From a virus: a DNA stretch of 32,115 nt. A model generated the notes under the pieces. It was not told the origin of the DNA. It ran no database searches and was given only the letters and a program-made list of their open reading frames with translations. Below, piece by piece: positions 14,361 through 29,814 of the stretch (positions are counted from its first letter, which is position 1; each line of letters begins with the position of its first letter). The stretch covers positions 1 through 32,115 of IMG/VR virus record IMGVR_UViG_3300044712_001138. One strand, given 5' to 3'. Made by a program: the position numbers and the translations under genes.

Positions 14361-15671
14361 TTAAGTTATCGAGTCATAAATCGGAACGAATCCGAGACTA
14401 GTCCCGTTGACAGCGAAGACTTCCATCTTCTTAACTACAGTTCCTAAAGTTGTTGCAGCAGCGGAGTTACCAACTCCGAGACCAGTCTTACCGACGACTA
14501 AATCATTCGCGGTAACTTTACCTGTTCCTCGGTTGATGGTCATAAGTGCTGTCCCGGTATCGGCATTGTAGAACACCCAAATATTTCCAGGTCCGTCGCA
14601 CACAAGATACTGACCATCTGCAAGAGATAGTAACGCATTACCTGAGCGGTAAATTTCAGCAGCTCCACCGGAGCCATCCATATGAAGTCCACGTCGTAAT
14701 GTATCGAGGTAGTAACCGTTAAGTGCAGTACTCGGTAATCGCATGAGACGAGTAGCAAAAATATCACGTGGTCGGTTACCAGATGAGGTTCCGATGTCAC
14801 CCCCGCCGTCTGTGTTCCATCTTAAGTTCGCAGCTGAGGAAGCTTTTAAAGTAAGTGTACCTGCCGACGAAACAGTTAATACTGAACTTGCACTATGTTG
14901 AAGGTCTAACAGGTCTACAGCCGTAGATCCATTGTCTATCGTTAAAGCTGTAGCTGAACCGCCAGTTATCGTTGTAGACAACGCGCCGTTAGCATCTTCA
15001 GTTAATTTACCGTTTCCAATAGTGCTAGAACCGGTTATACGCGCCATCTTGCCAGAAGTGAGGCCTGACCCTGAGACCTTAGCAGAGAACGTCGTAAAAT
15101 CGCCGCTAGACAGGTATCCATCGTGAGTAGCATCAGCTTGCTGAATGCTGAACACTCCACCGCTATAAGCGATTGGAGCTGAAGCAGATACTGCACCTTG
15201 TGCTCTCGCTGTTGTGAAGAATAGCTTTGAGCCTTCTGCTAAGTCTGTTGTACTCTTAGCTGCAAAGGCAGTATTGAATCTTGCAGCCGTGTAATAAAGA
15301 TTTGATCCTTCAGCTAAATCTGAAGTTGTCTTCAATGCTAAACGAGAATCGAATCTGGCTGTCGTGTAGTAAAGATTCGAACCTTCTGCGAGGTCACTTG
15401 TCGTCTTAAGAGCAAGTCGCTCGTCAAAGCGAGTTGTCGAGTAGTAGAGGTTTGCACCCTCTGCTAAATCGTCTGTTGAAAACGGAGCAAGGGTAACCGT
15501 CGGGGTTAAGAGATTGTTTGCATCGTCATAACTCCAACTGATACCTGTACCGTTTTGAAACAGGCCTGCAATAGCATCTTGCGATGCTTCGTCAGTAAAA
15601 TATAAATTGATGTTACCTTGAGGTAACTCATCCGTACTTTGTAAAGTCGGGGACGTTAAAATGAAGCCCAT
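14361..15671 (-). CDS. Long tail fibre with 25-residue DLAEGxNLYYTTARF repeats
   Basis: A 436-residue protein, first gene of the late module, with AAGGAG nine bases before its ATG. Residues 66-165 are four tandem 25-residue repeats (consensus T-S-D-L-A-E-G-S-N-L-Y-Y-T-T-A-R-F-D-x-R-L-A-L-K-T), with a decayed copy at 13-37; such repeats build the shaft of many phage fibres. The rest is Ser/Thr/Gly-rich and beta-prone (LTVSSAGTLTLKASSAANLR, DIGTSSGNRPRDIFATRLMR), typical of fibre bodies. No intramolecular chaperone (peptidase S74) motif is seen. It probably takes part in host recognition. Confidence 0.8.
   Translation of the reverse strand: MGFILTSPTLQSTDELPQGNINLYFTDEASQDAIAGLFQNGTGISWSYDDANNLLTPTVTLAPFSTDDLAEGANLYYSTTRFDERLALKTTSDLAEGSNLYYTTARFDSRLALKTTSDLAEGSNLYYTAARFNTAFAAKSTTDLAEGSKLFFTTARAQGAVSASAPIAYSGGVFSIQQADATHDGYLSSGDFTTFSAKVSGSGLTSGKMARITGSSTIGNGKLTEDANGALSTTITGGSATALTIDNGSTAVDLLDLQHSASSVLTVSSAGTLTLKASSAANLRWNTDGGGDIGTSSGNRPRDIFATRLMRLPSTALNGYYLDTLRRGLHMDGSGGAAEIYRSGNALLSLADGQYLVCDGPGNIWVFYNADTGTALMTINRGTGKVTANDLVVGKTGLGVGNSAAATTLGTVVKKMEVFAVNGTSLGFVPIYDSIT
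15177..15476 (-). repeat. Four tandem 75-bp coding repeats in the fibre gene
   Basis: The DNA for fibre residues 66-165 consists of four in-frame 75-bp units encoding the DLAEG-NLYY-TARF motif. Units two and three are most alike, the fourth most diverged. In-frame repeats of this size can expand or contract by recombination and so change shaft length. Confidence 0.8.
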
Positions 15672-15684
15672 TTAAAGAAACTCC

Positions 15685-15713
15685 TTGACAAGGCGCGTAA
15701 AAAATGTTATAAT
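15685..15713 (+). promoter_or_regulatory. Consensus sigma-70 promoter for a short antisense RNA
   Basis: TTGACA (15685-15690), 17-bp spacer, TATAAT (15708-15713): a perfect match to the consensus boxes. Expected start is near 15720. It points away from the late genes and overlaps the Shine-Dalgarno of the fibre gene on the other strand. The sequence between and after the boxes resembles the promoter at 29786-29814. Confidence 0.8.
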
Positions 15714-15721
15714 AGGGATAC

Positions 15722-15750
15722 TACCGCCGGGGGTAAAGTAGGGGAAGGGA
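15722..15750 (+). repeat. 29-bp G-rich repeat, copy 1 (inverted relative to copy 2)
   Basis: Twenty-nine bases starting TACCGCCGGGGG and ending GGGGAAGGGA are identical to the reverse complement of 29749-29777. Identity stops exactly at both ends. It begins nine bases after the -10 box in both places, at about +3 of the transcript. Confidence 0.9.
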
Positions 15751-15767: not shown

Positions 15768-15793
15768 GCGACACTTTTAGGTGTCGCTTTTTT
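15768..15793 (+). terminator. Intrinsic terminator of the antisense RNA
   Basis: GCGACAC (15768-15774), loop TTTTAG, GTGTCGC (15781-15787), then six T. Perfect 7-bp stem. In the other direction the stem is not followed by T, so it should not stop late transcription. Confidence 0.8.
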
Positions 15794-15945
15794 ATTTCCG
15801 TTTGCTCCGGCGAGGCCGCTAGGCCGAAGCCGGCAGTATCTAGCTGTGTCTTACTTGTTGAGTTCATGATTGATGGGAGAGGAGACGATAGTCTCCGAAT
15901 CTTGGAAGAGAAAAGCTAAAGGCATTCCCTTAGTATTATACCCCT

Positions 15946-15974
15946 ATTATACCATAAATGCTGCGCAATGTCAA
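15946..15974 (-). promoter_or_regulatory. Late-operon promoter
   Basis: On the minus strand, TTGACA (15974-15969), 17-bp spacer, TATAAT (15951-15946), followed by AGGGG and a second TATAAT 11 bases on. The expected start near 15939 gives a leader of about 268 nt before the fibre gene. The -35 lies in an inverted repeat, GTCAAG-N6-CTTGAC (15970-15987), shared with the divergent promoter at 15983, a possible operator. Confidence 0.75.
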
Positions 15975-16732: not shown

Positions 16733-17278
16733 TTAAGGCGCTTCAAAAGTGATAGGAGCGTCAGCTTCAAAGTTATATGGCTGAGCGACTTCAGTTACAG
16801 ATGCATAGTATCCGCTCGGAGCCACAGAACCCGAAAGACTCGTATTGCAAGTTGAACCCTGAACACTCGCATAAGTTATCAGTGGAAGTGAATCAGTTGA
16901 GCGGCTGCCAATGAGATAATACTTAGATTGCACAACGTCATAGTAAACTGTTTTGCCCGAAACGCCTTTACTTGAGTCGGAAATCATAACAGGTGTTCCA
17001 GTGCAGTTACCAGAACTGTAGTACATTCCCATACCGGAATGATATGCATAGCGGCCAGTTTGAAGATCTATAGTTGCGAAGCGATCAGCTGAGGGAATAT
17101 ATACGTGTGCAACGTCAGAACGAATTAGATCTATTAAGTATGAGGTTATCGTCCCGCTCTTTTTAGAGACGAGATACGGTTTACCAGTTTGAGTTGAGGC
17201 AGCATTGTCAGACTTCTTACCACACCCGACTAATGCCGAAAGAATTAGGACCGTCGTGAAAGCATTGATTTTTGTCAT
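16733..17278 (-). CDS. Predicted outer-membrane lipoprotein
   Basis: A 181-residue protein. The N-terminus MTKINAFTTVLILSALVGCG is a lipoprotein signal with lipobox LVGC and cleavage before Cys19, followed by a KKSDN linker. The mature part is beta-rich with aromatic clusters (RYAYHSGMGMYYSSGNCTGT, GKTVYYDVVQSKYYLIGS) and two spaced cysteines that could pair. No known domain is recognised. It stands alone on the minus strand, with a TATAAT at 17304-17299 and a palindrome upstream, suggesting its own regulated promoter. A role in lysogenic conversion or superinfection exclusion is possible but purely inferential. Confidence 0.75.
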   Translation of the reverse strand: MTKINAFTTVLILSALVGCGKKSDNAASTQTGKPYLVSKKSGTITSYLIDLIRSDVAHVYIPSADRFATIDLQTGRYAYHSGMGMYYSSGNCTGTPVMISDSSKGVSGKTVYYDVVQSKYYLIGSRSTDSLPLITYASVQGSTCNTSLSGSVAPSGYYASVTEVAQPYNFEADAPITFEAP

Positions 17279-17335: not shown

Positions 17336-17908
17336 TTAAGTTTTCTTAAGTGCTTTTGCAACGCCCTGCTTCGTGATGCCGAAGTGATTACCTATTTCGC
17401 TTAGCGACTGACCAGCTGCGCGCATCTGTTTCGCTCGCGCTATATCGATAACCTGTTTTCGCCCGAGTACAACGCCACGTGACTTCGCATGTTTCAGTCC
17501 GGCCTTCACACGCTCTTTAATAAGAGCTGCTTCAAATTCACCCATTGCGCCGATGATCTGTACCATCAAACGGCCAGATGGAGTTGTGAGATCAATCTGG
17601 TCTTTTAGTGAAACTAATTCAACACCGAGAGTTTCGAATTCATGAATTGTAGTTATGAGATGTCTTAGAGATCTGAATAGACGATCGAGTTTCCATATGA
17701 GAACGCGCTTAACTCGGCCTGCTCTACAGTCAGCAAGTAAATACTGCAACTGTTGTCTGTTTCCATTAGTCCCAGTCTTTCCGTTGTCCTCATAGACCGC
17801 TATATCATCCCATCCGCGAGCCTTTGCGAGATTTAATAGGTCTTGCCTTTGAAGGTCTGTACTTTGTTCTAAAGTCGATACTCGTATGTATATAGCTGTT
17901 TTCAGCAT
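17336..17908 (-). CDS. Serine recombinase (resolvase/invertase family)
   Basis: A 190-residue protein of the usual resolvase/invertase length. Catalytic N-terminal domain: AIYIRVSTLEQ with nucleophile Ser11 and Arg9, GKTGTNGNRQQLQ, and VLIWKLDRLFRSLRHLI supplying the conserved arginines near 70-75. Then a long E-helix (MVQIIGAMGEFEAALIKERV) and a C-terminal helix-turn-helix (AAGQSLSEIGNHFGITKQGV). GAGG lies five bases before the ATG. These enzymes cut and rejoin DNA at short sites with a 2-bp centre. It may resolve multimers or invert a segment; the nearby fibre genes and the inverted 29-bp repeats that bracket it make inversion worth testing. Confidence 0.85.
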   Translation of the reverse strand: MLKTAIYIRVSTLEQSTDLQRQDLLNLAKARGWDDIAVYEDNGKTGTNGNRQQLQYLLADCRAGRVKRVLIWKLDRLFRSLRHLITTIHEFETLGVELVSLKDQIDLTTPSGRLMVQIIGAMGEFEAALIKERVKAGLKHAKSRGVVLGRKQVIDIARAKQMRAAGQSLSEIGNHFGITKQGVAKALKKT

Positions 17909-18107: not shown

Positions 18108-18695
18108 ATGAATAAAAAGGACTTAGAACTAAATAAAATGTTAATAGTCGCTTCAATCTTAACCGTCCTTGCTTTAACGGCTTGTGGACCGGGCGTTGGA
18201 ATCAGAAATGCGGGCAACTCTGAAGAACCAAACGTTGTATTACTTCCAGCTGAGTTACCAGCTGAGATCGCAAATGATGATGATAACGAAGAACAAGAAA
18301 TAGTCGTTGTTCTTAATGTGGAAAACCACGCGAACGATCAAGTTATCAATGAAGCACACGAAGCAAACATTGAAGTGATCGAAGTTCAATCGGAAACACC
18401 AGTCGAAGAGATCATTGCAGCTATCGAAGAGATTGCCACAGTTGATGAAGTAACAATTCAAACTATTCAAGACGCAATTGCAGATGAAGCAGAAGTTATC
18501 ACACTCGAAGTAACTCCAGAGCCACAACACGAAGAAGCTGCTCCAGTAGTTGAAGTGGTCCCTCAAGTCGAAGTTGTAGTCATCCCTGTTATCACACCCT
18601 CGCCTACACCGACACCTACACCAGTTATCGAACTACCAAAGCATTGCAGTGATGGTCACGGCAAAGACGGTTCTAAATCTAAAGCTTGTAAATAA
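18108..18695 (+). CDS. Acidic Val/Glu-rich lipoprotein with Pro-Thr stalk
   Basis: A 195-residue protein with GGAG six bases before the ATG. The N-terminus has a signal with lipobox LTAC (Cys26). The mature part is strongly acidic and rich in Val, Glu and Ile (EEQEIVVVLNVENH, VDEVTIQTIQDAIADEAEVI), then a SPTPTPTPV stalk and a Lys/Gly/Ser tail with two cysteines (HCSDGHGKDGSKSKACK). No domain is recognised. It is the first gene of a rightward operon and may be a surface-exposed accessory lipoprotein. Confidence 0.75.
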   Translation: MNKKDLELNKMLIVASILTVLALTACGPGVGIRNAGNSEEPNVVLLPAELPAEIANDDDNEEQEIVVVLNVENHANDQVINEAHEANIEVIEVQSETPVEEIIAAIEEIATVDEVTIQTIQDAIADEAEVITLEVTPEPQHEEAAPVVEVVPQVEVVVIPVITPSPTPTPTPVIELPKHCSDGHGKDGSKSKACK

Positions 18696-19662: not shown

Positions 19663-19919
19663 GTAAACGATTCTATATCCCATTCAACATGGCGATCTAT
19701 AACAATGGCGGTTACAAGTTAGATTTAATTAAGGCTGCTATTAAAGAAGCAGGCGGGAAGAATGTACGACAAGCGAATCAGTTTGGTTGGAGTAACCAAC
19801 CCAAGGTTGTAACTTTTTCAGCTGACAGAAAAGAGCTGGTCGAAAAAATTGAACGGCACGTGGCATTCGTTTGTCGATACCCAGATTGGGCCATAATTGC
19901 AGCGAGGGTTTCAGAATGA
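19659..19919 (+). CDS. Small unknown protein
   Basis: An 86-residue protein with AAGGGG five bases before the ATG. The sequence MSKRFYIPFNMAIYNNGGYK has a basic helix (LDLIKAAIKEAGGKNVRQAN) and a C-terminal part PDWAIIAARVSE. It overlaps the CarD-like gene by ATGA, so the two are probably co-translated and may act together. Family not recognised. Confidence 0.65.
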   Translation: MSKRFYIPFNMAIYNNGGYKLDLIKAAIKEAGGKNVRQANQFGWSNQPKVVTFSADRKELVEKIERHVAFVCRYPDWAIIAARVSE

Positions 19920-20368
19920 AACCTAAATTTAAAGTTGGACAACGTGTAGTCCATAAGTCACACGGTCCTGGAATCATCACGGCAATTGAAGAGCGTCAGT
20001 TCGATCCTGACAACGTGACAACATTCTACATTATTGCCTTAAGAGATTTCGGTACTACTAAGAAGATATTCGTACCGCTAAAGTCCGCAGACGAGCGTTT
20101 ACGTCTTCCAGTTGACGACGAAGGCAAAGAACAGATTCTTGCAATGCTTTCAAGTGCTCCTGAAGATTCATTCAAAGGCTTTAGTTACAAGCAGCGATAC
20201 CACAAGATGATGGAGCGTATTCGAAGCGGTGATCTACACTGCGTTTCGGAAGTTGCAGCAATCCTATTGCAACTCAGAAAAGAAGAAAAATTAAGTTTTA
20301 TTGAGCACCGACTGCTCTTGCAGTGCCTCGAAATCATTGAGGCAGAACTACAAGTCAAAGTTTCGTAA
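19916..20368 (+). CDS. CarD/CdnL-like RNA polymerase-binding regulator
   Basis: A 150-residue protein starting at the ATG that overlaps the previous stop; GAGGG lies upstream, and a longer in-frame start at 19871 lies inside the previous gene. Residues 5-65 have the CarD/TRCF RNA polymerase-interacting domain pattern: FKVGQRVVHKSHGPGIITAI, FYIIALRD, IFVPLKSADERLRLP. Residues 90-146 match the helical C-terminal domain: YKQRYHKMMERIRSGDLHCV, SEVAAILLQL, then KLSFIEHRLLLQCLEIIEAE. Known CarD/CdnL proteins bind the RNAP beta lobe and stabilise the open complex. In a phage this suggests control of host or phage promoters; that is inference. I do not see the C-terminal tryptophan wedge at its usual place. 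Confidence 0.75.
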   Translation: MKPKFKVGQRVVHKSHGPGIITAIEERQFDPDNVTTFYIIALRDFGTTKKIFVPLKSADERLRLPVDDEGKEQILAMLSSAPEDSFKGFSYKQRYHKMMERIRSGDLHCVSEVAAILLQLRKEEKLSFIEHRLLLQCLEIIEAELQVKVS

Positions 20369-20775: not shown

Positions 20776-21864
20776 ATGGGTTACACAGTACGAAAGAAGT
20801 CTGGCCGCTGGTATGTTCAGTATGAAACATACCCTGACGGCAAACGAACAGCGAAAACAGTTGCCGGTGAGGATCTTGCAAGGCTTGGCATTCAAGATCA
20901 CATGTCTATCGAAGACGTGAAACTGATCATCAAAGACGTTAACCGTCACGAGAGAAAAACGCGATGGGATGCTAAGCGCTTCCGCATTCAAGAACGGATG
21001 GAAGCTGACGCCGTTGTTACGGTAAAGACTTTGCCACGAACTTTTGTGTCCGAGTTTGAAGACGAACTCCACTCCTATCCAAATTGGAAGAAGCTCCTCT
21101 CTAATTGGAATAGAGCTAAGAAGCTCATTGCCACGCTAAACATCCCCAGTGACCAGTGGAAGCGACGCAAGCAAGCAATCTATAACTACTTCGAAGAGAA
21201 TAGACTTTCGGATGCATATGCCAAAAAGGTGATACGCGTCATGAATCTATGGGGTGACTTCTATTCCCAGAAGACAGGTACTGCCTTTAGTATCTTGCCG
21301 ACGCCGAAAGGCCACGCGAAGAGTCGCATTCGAAAGAAGTATGAAAGTTCCCGTAAAGTTGCAAAGGCCTCCGAAGGATTGACGGAAGATCTACTGCGAA
21401 GCATCAAGCAGACGATGATGCCCCTGCAATACAATTGGCTCTTTATAAGTCTCTGGTTTGGCTTGCGCCCCAATGAAATGCGCAATCTAGACAAAGCTCA
21501 ACTAACTTATGTGACTTATGATCCCGATAAGAAGTTGTACTTCCTAAACATAAAGCAGACCAAGCTTTCAAACTTGTCGGATGATTTACAGTGGAAAATA
21601 ATCCCAGTTCTTTATCCAGAACAGAAAGCAGCACTGGAATTAATAAATAGTAAGTCCTACGACGAGCCGCTGCCTAAGACAGTGCGTCTACACTCTAAAG
21701 GGAACTATAAGTTGTATGCTGGTCGAAAAGGTTTCGGCCCTTTAATGTGGGACAAAGGCCATGATATTGTTGAGGTTAGTAGTTGGCTTGGCCACAAGTC
21801 CATTGACAGAACCTATGCTGACTATATGAATTGGAAGAAACTTAAACTAAGATTTGTGGCATAA
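20776..21864 (+). CDS. Tyrosine-recombinase integrase
   Basis: A 362-residue protein. The N-terminus (MGYTVRKKSGRWYVQYETYP, DGKRTAKTV) is an arm-binding-like beta domain; residues about 85-165 form the core-binding helical domain. Catalytic domain: FGLRPNEMRNL with Arg231, a lysine at NIKQTK (260-263), YAGRKGF with Arg317 in box II (Tyr in place of the usual His), WLGHKSIDRT with His340, and the nucleophile probably Tyr350 (alternatively Tyr347) in TYADYMNW. GAGG is four bases before the ATG. It would integrate the genome into the host chromosome and marks the phage as temperate. The preceding repeat region is a natural place for attP. Confidence 0.8.
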   Translation: MGYTVRKKSGRWYVQYETYPDGKRTAKTVAGEDLARLGIQDHMSIEDVKLIIKDVNRHERKTRWDAKRFRIQERMEADAVVTVKTLPRTFVSEFEDELHSYPNWKKLLSNWNRAKKLIATLNIPSDQWKRRKQAIYNYFEENRLSDAYAKKVIRVMNLWGDFYSQKTGTAFSILPTPKGHAKSRIRKKYESSRKVAKASEGLTEDLLRSIKQTMMPLQYNWLFISLWFGLRPNEMRNLDKAQLTYVTYDPDKKLYFLNIKQTKLSNLSDDLQWKIIPVLYPEQKAALELINSKSYDEPLPKTVRLHSKGNYKLYAGRKGFGPLMWDKGHDIVEVSSWLGHKSIDRTYADYMNWKKLKLRFVA

Positions 21865-22492: not shown

Positions 22493-22669
22493 ATGATGTA
22501 CGTTAGTAAACGCGCTAGTATAGCACTTAAATCCATCAAGTACATTCATGACGGCCTTGAACAAGCTACTCGTGAACAGAATCTGAAAGCATTTTTCAAA
22601 CTGCTTCAGGTGCTCTGTTACGAGACTAAGCAATTGGCCCTTGAGATGGACAAACGTAAGGAGTCCCGT
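22493..22669 (+). other. In-frame leaderless N-terminal extension upstream of the lipoprotein
   Basis: From ATG 22493 the frame stays open without a stop into the lipoprotein gene. These 59 codons encode a basic, helical segment ([40 protein letters not shown]). A product starting here would carry the lipoprotein signal internally and would not be lipidated normally; alternatively the region is a short N-terminal ORF fused in frame. Both starts look usable. Confidence 0.5.
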
Positions 22670-23242
22670 ATGAAAACAGTAGCAATGATTGCCCTAGGTT
22701 TATTTCTCATTGGTTGTTCTAATCACGACCACTTTGTGGGAAGTGCTTCATGCACTGTAACGGGAACAGGTGCTCTCACCTGCCCTGACGGATCTAGTTA
22801 TCAAGTTAACAGTGGCATCGACGGTAAAGACGGTTTAAATGGTGCTCAAGGTGCAACGGGTCCGCAAGGACCGCAAGGCCTTCAAGGCAACGATGGTCCT
22901 CAAGGTCCAACCGGCGCTACAGGTGCGACTGGAGCCACGGGTGCAACTGGAGCACAAGGTCCCCAAGGCGCTCAAGGACCACAAGGCATTGCAGGGACCA
23001 ATGGCACGAATGGTACCAACGGGATTGATGCAACTCCTACCTCGGTAGTGCAACTATGTGGAAGCTGTACAGCAGCTTATCCAAACGTGTTTCCTGAGAT
23101 TGGTCTTTGTCTTGCTGGCAAACTCTATGGAGTTTACTCAGCCAATAATGGTTTCTTAGTTTACTTATCAAATGGCACATACAATTCGAACGGCATCAAC
23201 TGTAGCTGCTCATTCGTAGTTAACGGATGCAATATTCAGTAA
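22670..23242 (+). CDS. Collagen-like lipoprotein
   Basis: 190 residues from the ATG at 22670, with AAGGAG six bases upstream; chosen because [16 protein letters not shown] is a lipoprotein signal with lipobox LIGC (Cys16). A short domain ([19 protein letters not shown]) leads into 24 consecutive Gly-X-Y triplets ([15 protein letters not shown], four GAT, three GTN), then a Cys-containing C-terminal globular part ([32 protein letters not shown]). Collagen-like triplets form trimeric rods; in phages they occur in fibres, in bacteria in surface lipoproteins. The lipobox favours a surface lipoprotein made in the infected or lysogenic cell. An in-frame upstream start exists at 22493. Confidence 0.8.
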
Positions 23243-28319: not shown

Positions 28320-28700
28320 TCACTCCTCTGGAAGTTTGAAGTCGCCTTTAAGGTTAATGCTTGCGTGCTTAGATGCCGGTTCCCAATTCATGTACTTGGC
28401 AATCAGCTCCGCTGCCTTAAGACGTTCCATTGGTCGATTATTTCTATCAGTCATGATCTCGTAGAATGTATCGCCAGTTTCTTGTGCAATAGTTGCATAG
28501 CGTTCTTTGATCGCATCCTGTAATGCACTTTGAACTCTTGGGCGACTCATCACTTCGTGAGCCATGTTAGTTAAACTCTTAGGTGTGGTAGGGTGGTAAT
28601 CCGCCATGAGAAGAGCTTCTTCATTAGTCTTAGCAGCGCCCGATGCAAGCGCTTCTACAACCTTCATCTCTTTGACTGTAAGTTTTTTATTTTCACTCAT
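28320..28700 (-). CDS. Candidate terminase small subunit / helix-turn-helix protein
   Basis: 126 residues. LTVKEMKVVEALASGAAKTN, EEALLMADYHPTTPKSLTNM and AHEVMSRPRVQSALQDAIKE follow the homeodomain-like layout of small terminase subunits (a start helix, repeated helix-turn-helix, then ...RPxVQxAL). The C-terminal MERLKAAELIAKYMNW is an oligomerisation-type helix. If so, it would recognise the packaging site and work with TerL, whose gene lies about 18 kb away on the same strand. Other DNA-binding roles are possible. ATGA overlap with the preceding gene. Confidence 0.55.
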   Translation of the reverse strand: MSENKKLTVKEMKVVEALASGAAKTNEEALLMADYHPTTPKSLTNMAHEVMSRPRVQSALQDAIKERYATIAQETGDTFYEIMTDRNNRPMERLKAAELIAKYMNWEPASKHASINLKGDFKLPEE

Positions 28701-28897
28701 GCGTGAGCCATTAATCCGTTATTGTTGAATGCTGACGAGGCGATAGCTTCAACCATCTTCTCGTGAGTTTCTTTAGAGTGTTCCTTGGTATTAATAATCC
28801 AACCCATGATAAGCACTGCTTCTAAGCAGCCTTCTTCATGTTTTGTGCAAGGACCTTTCTTTAAGATCACGACACAGGTTGGCTTTTTATGCTCCAA
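28697..28897 (-). CDS. Small unknown protein, probable TTG start
   Basis: 66 residues if started at TTG 28897, which has AGGA five bases upstream; an in-frame TTG at 28909 is less well placed. EHKKPTCVVILKKGPCTKHE and GCLEAVLIMGWIINTKEHS; two or three cysteines and a histidine could bind metal. Overlaps its neighbours on both sides. Function unknown. Confidence 0.5.
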   Translation of the reverse strand: MEHKKPTCVVILKKGPCTKHEEGCLEAVLIMGWIINTKEHSKETHEKMVEAIASSAFNNNGLMAHA

Positions 28898-29384
28898 AGA
28901 CTTCCTCAATTAGCTGTGAGATTGCTTCAATCTTAATGTCGAGTTCGCGCTGGTTCTTCTTGCTTGCGTATTCGCGAGCAGTTTTGAGACGCTTAAGAAT
29001 TTCTAGCGACAACTCTTTTGAACTCTGACTCCTACCCGCCTTCGGTAGCTCTTCATCTGTCTCAACAGAATGAACTACTGTCCTTTGATGTGTGGACGGT
29101 GTGGGAGAGGAAACGCCTGCCTTTTGCATCAGGTCACTAACTTTACGTTGCAGGTCAGCCGACAGCGGTTGCACAACTTTTTCAGGTGGACGCGGCTTTT
29201 CTAAAAAGTGGAACTCGCGACCTGGGAATGCACCACGCAACTCAGGTAAACTTGTGAAGGTCATCATGAATGCGCCAGCTGGTTCATCATCATGCGAGGC
29301 CAGCGCCATAGGAGTACTGCTCCCAGGGTCTACGGCGACTCGATAAATGTCGCCTTGTTTTGAAACCAAGATCTTCCCCAACAT
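28887..29384 (-). CDS. Unknown 165-residue early protein
   Basis: AAGGAG is seven bases before the ATG. N-terminal beta-rich domain (MLGKILVSKQGDIYRVAVDP, GAFMMTFTSLPELRGAFPGR), a Pro/Ser/Thr-rich linker (GVSSPTPSTHQRTVVHSVET), then a C-terminal helix of Lys/Glu (SLEILKRLKTAREYASKKNQ). No family recognised. Confidence 0.65.
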   Translation of the reverse strand: MLGKILVSKQGDIYRVAVDPGSSTPMALASHDDEPAGAFMMTFTSLPELRGAFPGREFHFLEKPRPPEKVVQPLSADLQRKVSDLMQKAGVSSPTPSTHQRTVVHSVETDEELPKAGRSQSSKELSLEILKRLKTAREYASKKNQRELDIKIEAISQLIEEVFGA

Positions 29385-29586
29385 GTTGTAGCTCCTTAAG
29401 CCATTCTTGTTTGTCTTTTGTTTTCCAGCGAGAGATTAGCCGTGGATAGCGAGCGATGAGCACGAGAGCTTCTTCATAAATATCGTGAGCCTCATCTCCT
29501 GGATCTAAACCGTCCAGGGGCAGATCAAGTTCATAGCTGAGAATGTCTTTTAAGGCCTGTAGTAGAACCTGTAGTTGAAGTAACAT
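29290..29586 (-). CDS. First gene of the leftward early operon, unknown
   Basis: 98 residues from the ATG at 29586, chosen because an upstream in-frame ATG overlaps the promoter's -10; GGGG and AGG lie 3-11 bases before it. Helical protein (LLQLQVLLQALKDILSYELD, DIYEEALVLIARYPRLISRW). The C-terminal 30 residues, basic (KTRRHLSSRRRPWEQY), overlap the next gene by 95 bases. No family recognised. Confidence 0.6.
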   Translation of the reverse strand: MLLQLQVLLQALKDILSYELDLPLDGLDPGDEAHDIYEEALVLIARYPRLISRWKTKDKQEWLKELQHVGEDLGFKTRRHLSSRRRPWEQYSYGAGLA

Positions 29587-29606
29587 TGACCTGCCCCATG
29601 AATATA

Positions 29607-29635
29607 ATAATACCATATGTAACGCTGAAAGTCAA
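29607..29635 (-). promoter_or_regulatory. Promoter close to the leftward early operon
   Basis: Minus strand: TTGACT (29635-29630), 17-bp spacer, TATTAT (29612-29607). Start near 29600, only about 14 bases before the ATG at 29586, giving a very short leader with a GGGGCAGG Shine-Dalgarno. Confidence 0.65.
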
Positions 29636-29748
29636 TCTGTAAGTGTATTTTCTGCTCTATAAGTTAGAATTTGCACTTGTAAGCTGTATTGTCGCGCCCC
29701 TAATATAAGGGGTAGAAACTTTACCTGGGCAGGATGCCTACGCATCCG

Positions 29749-29777
29749 TCCCTTCCCCTACTTTACCCCCGGCGGTA
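29749..29777 (-). repeat. 29-bp G-rich repeat, copy 2
   Basis: The exact reverse complement of 15722-15750. It occupies about +3 to +31 of the transcript from the promoter at 29786-29814. Downstream in the same leader are hairpins GGATGC-GTAG-GCATCC (29746-29731) and CCCCT-N6-AGGGG (about 29700-29715). Confidence 0.9.
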
Positions 29778-29785
29778 ACTTCCCC

Positions 29786-29814
29786 ATTATAGCACGTATA
29801 ATGCGTTTTGTCAA
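29786..29814 (-). promoter_or_regulatory. Consensus promoter with 180-nt leader for the leftward operon
   Basis: Minus strand: TTGACA (29814-29809), 17-bp spacer, TATAAT (29791-29786), then GGGGAAG and the 29-bp repeat. Start near 29779. It resembles the promoter at 15685-15713 also in the spacer (CGC shortly after the -35, TGY before the -10). It reads through the second promoter at 29607 into the operon. Confidence 0.8.

Follow-up and report, generated by a model that had tools for sequence, protein, structure and literature searches.

Matched leader elements at two convergent promoters of an uncultured phage family: a probable common control element

Two convergent promoters and a repeated block

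The window analysed here is the whole of virus record IMGVR_UViG_3300044712_001138 (32,115 nt), from a phage of freshwater type. The contig is incomplete, since the sequence of its relatives runs on past the right end with more genes, one of which is by our reading DNA-polymerase-like. Terminase searches of bacterial genomes for a host, in two runs, gave no match. The features on which the analysis draws are as follows.

Leftward from 15671, minus strand: terminase, portal, major head and tail genes, the late (structural) operon
14361 to 15671, minus strand: first gene of the late operon, reached by predicted transcript C
15685 to 15713, plus strand: promoter A, TTGACA-N17-TATAAT, directed away from the late operon
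15722 to 15750, plus strand: copy A of the 29-bp block, spanning about +3 to +31 of the predicted RNA
15768 to 15793, plus strand: intrinsic terminator past block A, stem GCGACACT/GGTGTCGC, then TTTTTT
15881 to 15933, minus strand: two-hairpin leader of transcript C, hairpins at 15933-15916 and 15896-15881
15946 to 15974, minus strand: promoter C, TTGACA-N17-TATAAT, converging on A
17336 to 17908, minus strand: serine recombinase gene, near promoter A
20776 to 21864, plus strand: weak tyrosine-integrase-like gene
28320 to 29384, minus strand: following genes of the B operon (a protein of ~165 aa, a small ORF and a terminase-small-subunit-like protein), conserved
29290 to 29616, minus strand: protein 1, first gene of the B operon; an internal start at 29586 agrees better with relatives
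29607 to 29635, minus strand: second promoter-like site, TTGACT-N17-TATTAT, ahead of the protein 1 gene
29732 to 29747, minus strand: hairpin GGATGC/GCATCC directly after block B, with no T run
29749 to 29777, minus strand: 29-bp block, copy B, downstream of promoter B
29786 to 29814, minus strand: promoter B, TTGACA-N17-TATAAT, facing promoter A and leading into the B operon
Right end of the window: DnaB-like gene

Promoters A and B each match sigma-70 at 12/12 positions, with a 17-nt spacer and a TG ahead of the -10. A sequence-only reading had placed the same 29 bases behind two TTGACA-N17-TATAAT promoters, and this was borne out: the block, TACCGCCGGGGGTAAAGTAGGGGAAGGGA in both copies, occurs exactly twice in the window, each time at one of these promoters, with no third copy at three or fewer mismatches and none in 100 dinucleotide shuffles. 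Eight bases lie between the -10 and the block, which begins at the ninth, a position of about +3 if transcription is taken to start 7 nt past the -10. The abrupt end of the identity on both sides, also claimed in that reading, held up as well, with 4/8 positions identical between the -10 and the block and 10/30 after it. The promoters were likewise found to be similar and not identical, as had been stated, their spacers agreeing at 9/17 positions and the 75-nt arms that include them being 80% alike. Promoter C (15974, minus strand), the third perfect promoter of the window, is without the block. If the terminator past block A is not read through, RNA A would be ~75 nt long. Among 2.9 million viral contigs, an exact search for the block gave no match outside the window, a DNA search of phage records returned only promoter-like chance matches (E = 0.1), and Rfam had no match at the block.

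Among the other genes of the window, three were judged by eye to be lipoprotein-like (16733-17278, minus strand; 18108-18695 and 22493-23242, plus strand), one of them with a collagen-like repeat, and these are possibly of host origin. A gene for a CarD/CdnL-like RNA-polymerase-binding protein (19871-20368, plus strand) recurs in one relative only, at G017:30516-30701 (L052:11008-11505).

Matched pairs in related phages

A terminase search gathered 36 related viral contigs, with 61-77% identity in the terminase, and nine relatives were compared as whole or nearly whole contigs. Equivalents of both A and B are present in G001, G005, G020 and G004, and in each the two share a common leader unlike that of the window: GCTATACGTATAGCTATCG in G001 and G005, and CCGnnnAATAGTGTATACGTATATAG in G020 with a similar sequence in G004. 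A weak fifth relative, G017, carries CCCCCCCGG at both promoters, with a score at noise level. A type-2 element stands at A in G009, G011 and L006, and L024 has a looser version of it there; in these four records B lies outside the contig or was not found. Because G001/G005 and G020/G004 are near relatives, the lineages with both copies amount to only about four independent ones. The B operon itself is recognisable across the comparison. Protein 1 is small and helical and is kept behind element B in 6/6 genomes, with no known family and no match in a fold search; the second promoter-like site before its gene has the same layout in G001, G005, G020 and G004. The call of a terminase-small-subunit-like protein further on comes from a Pfam match below its cut-off.

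The pairing was quantified by scoring every leader at A against every leader at B in six genomes (the window, G001, G005, G020, G004 and G017). The true pairing was the best of the 720 possible assignments, whereas the promoters alone placed it at rank 246 of 720. Leader A of the window scored 58 against its own leader B, compared with 11-16 for the window against other genomes. When all promoter-like pairs within a genome were scored, A/B came first in the window, G001, G020 and G004 (58, 54, 47 and 50, respectively; next best 23-30). In G001, G005 and G020, TATACGTATA is confined to A and B, apart from one further match in G020, which is the terminal repeat of A; in G004 and G009 it is confined to A. 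The element always lies downstream of the presumed start, in constant orientation to transcription and never over the promoter. The expectation that related phages would always have the block at +3 of a promoter is thus upheld for the element, though not for the exact 29-base sequence, of which the searches gave no copy outside the window.

Leader A of G001 and G005 is identical over ~68 nt (+15 to +82), save for a one-base loop indel, and this stretch contains the hairpin GCAGGTC-AATAA-GACCTGC; the promoter and flanks of A diverge between the two, being ~75% alike. Leader B differs at two positions over about +5 to +58. Since leaders match within a genome and promoters do not, and since leader A is kept while its flanks have diverged, selection appears to act on an element at the 5′ end of both transcripts.

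The resemblance of A and B could also be mere history, with one duplicated promoter region kept alike by recombination between inverted copies, or with the block serving as a recombinase site. The blocks are indeed inverted repeats 14 kb apart, a serine recombinase gene (17336-17908) lies near A, and an inversion between the copies would merely exchange the two promoters. Gene conversion should homogenise the promoters too, yet these are no more alike within genomes than between them; the cores shared by A and B in relatives also stand at unequal distances from the two promoters, which counts against a recombination site. The matched pairs of other sequence in relatives argue against recent duplication alone, and we regard the historical account as very improbable. 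Because such pairs recur at the same two places in relatives, the A/B pair is probably a common control element for two phage gene sets and not a chance copy. Matched pairs whose sequence changes jointly from one related phage to the next are the hallmark of a target with a dedicated reader; if that reader were found, the family would allow comparative study, on a small scale, of the coupling of separate transcription units by phages.

Reading of the element as RNA or as DNA

The reading we prefer, at a shade under an even chance, is that the leader element is read on nascent RNA by a common phage-specific factor, in the manner of put or nut, which switches two transcription units together. 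The block would be the window's version of a leader element carried twice per genome in its family, so placed that each of two transcripts from strong convergent promoters has a copy at its 5′ end, and both copies would be targets of the one factor. In the least certain step, this factor would act on the nascent 5′ RNA while elongation is at an early stage, in the way known for lambda nut and HK022 put, and its action would switch both units together; at copy A, the directly downstream intrinsic terminator would be the obstacle to overcome. A single reader for both copies is the simplest account of elements that match within phages and differ between them while the promoters do not. The placement after the start, the constant orientation and the conservation over tens of nucleotides, hairpin included, favour RNA, and leader A of G001 and G005 is conserved for longer than an operator requires. 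A strong hairpin is present in most leaders at about +28 to +90, its energy typically -10 to -19 kcal/mol (median of random windows, -6.7), and the stem sequence of this post-core hairpin varies between lineages.

Several results argue against action as RNA. Consensus folding of the type-2 leaders gave no helix common to the core, and the 5′ module paired with its own downstream part no better than when swapped with that of another phage (p 0.13-0.95). The first 60 nt of RNA A in the window are less structured than shuffles (z +1.6), and a terminator directly after A was not found in most relatives, G009 having a possible one. Downstream of A in relatives, moreover, the antisense of a conserved gene comes before any same-strand gene. 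The independent lineages with both copies are few, and G017 is weak. The earlier proposal of a selected element at the 5′ end of RNA is supported in part: selection gains from the promoter-tied matched pairs whose sequence differs between phages, and action as RNA, by pausing, antitermination or RNA-RNA pairing, stays a candidate, with no helix conserved in the core. The palindromes of several cores also speak against RNA, in that they favour DNA.

On the DNA reading, the block would be an operator in the initially transcribed region; at A and B alike, one bound phage regulator would hinder or tune promoter escape, as with paired operators at two early promoters. We consider this unlikely, if by no means negligible. 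Perfect palindromes occur in the relatives (GCTATACGTATAGC in G001 and G005; TATACGTATA in G020, at A in G004, and in G009), and the window's block contains TACCGCCGGGGGTA, symmetric at 12/14 positions by direct reading. The absence of a conserved helix in the core fits an operator, and the match within and difference between phages resembles heterospecific repressor/operator pairs (PMC6550527). However, the element overlaps the promoter at no site, its orientation to transcription is constant, and the conservation of leader A spans ~68 nt and takes in a hairpin. In ten records (the window and the nine relatives, whose contigs are possibly incomplete), searches gave no HTH_3 regulator; nor was a PF00589 phage integrase detected at E 0.01.

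A G-quadruplex was also considered. Copy A has four G-runs, predicted over 45 nt to be ~4 kcal/mol better than the plain fold; as a shared function it was rejected, because copy B lacks the fourth run and gains no energy.

RNA leader-based control is best known from lambdoid phages, to which the phage family of the window appears to be unrelated. HK022 put is an RNA of ~70 nt with two stem-loops and conserved structure, and gives terminator readthrough without a phage protein. The two early transcripts of HK022 carry putL and putR; putL comes directly after its promoter and spans nucleotides 2-74, its base pairing begins at nucleotide 3, and put acts via the β′ zinc-binding domain (PMC9378689). 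The A/B pair is similar in that there are two similar elements, one per transcript, where transcription in the window is deduced from the promoters, and its layout is analogous enough for put membership to be entertained as a candidate only. As to structure, most A/B leaders show one strong hairpin after the core, folding gave no helix conserved in the core, and a fixed two-stem form was not demonstrable for A and B. The element sequences, unlike put, diverge fast between related phages.

In the lambdoid phages, lambda nutL and nutR, which act with the arginine-rich N protein, are two near-identical transcribed elements per phage, of phage-specific sequence. A and B are likewise two near-identical elements of phage-specific sequence; their promoters converge, whereas those of lambda diverge, and no N-like protein was recognised. 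Inspection of both leaders of the window revealed no GCTCTT-like boxA, and no 15-nt boxB-like hairpin in the block, and the A/B element is therefore not a nut site as defined. Mycobacteriophage stoperators are numerous, lie for the most part at a distance from promoters and are oriented with transcription (PMC6550527). With these and with paired operators, the A/B element has in common a phage-specific recognition sequence at early promoters. Measured against the 20-30 asymmetric, genome-wide sites that we took as the stoperator criterion, the window's block differs in having two sites only, both just past a start and none inside genes. The palindromes of some cores recall paired operators, yet the element is always downstream of the start and not over the promoter, and the HTH_3 search produced no repressor match in the ten records.

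A broader claim, which we hold to be doubtful, is that this uncultured phage family has a new, fast-evolving class of paired promoter-proximal leaders, outside put, nut and Q, each pair with a cognate phage factor of its own that would couple two convergent operons and possibly the late switch as well.

Transcript C and possible pairing between leaders

Promoters C and A of the window face each other 290 bp apart, and transcript C would, as predicted, run antisense across block A into the late operon, with the complement of block A occupying the stretch 51-79 nt ahead of the first gene's start. RNA-RNA pairing is a real alternative to a factor-read leader because the predicted transcript C carries this exact complement, which is itself forced by the geometry: RNA B, acting in trans, and RNA A, acting in cis, could pair with the late leader of transcript C over 29 nt. 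Relatives keep promoter C, and in the same direction. In five of five genomes, once its own opposite strand is left aside, RNA B has its strongest target in the core complement at A, at about -41 to -65 kcal/mol; the palindromic core itself is nearly as strong a target in G001 and G005. The complement is, however, an unavoidable result of the likeness of A and B, and pairing leaves unexplained why A has an element at +3 of its own promoter. Several relatives also have a second late promoter beyond A, whose transcripts are without the complement. Across five genomes, no other RNA target of the core within the phage was clearly above shuffled cores. Overall, we judge pairing to be distinctly unlikely. 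Antisense control by the CI RNA of satellite phage P4 or by P1 c4 combines short leader RNAs with complementary sequences of the same element, whereas the complement in the window is just the opposite strand of copy A.

Between promoters C and A, relatives have a DUF6321 gene, absent from the window, that is antisense to the A transcript (G001:18764-19156, also L040:765-1157, by Pfam; G020:39486-39872, by sequence likeness of the ORF). Judged by sequence, the start of transcript C itself resembles a structured leader RNA. Two hairpins begin this transcript in the window, L006, L024, G001, G005, G009, G011, G017, G020 and G004; their stems vary in sequence between phages, many have a pyrimidine-rich, UCUUMCC-like spacer between the hairpins, and a GCGTCACCTGC motif lies downstream of the hairpins in relatives.
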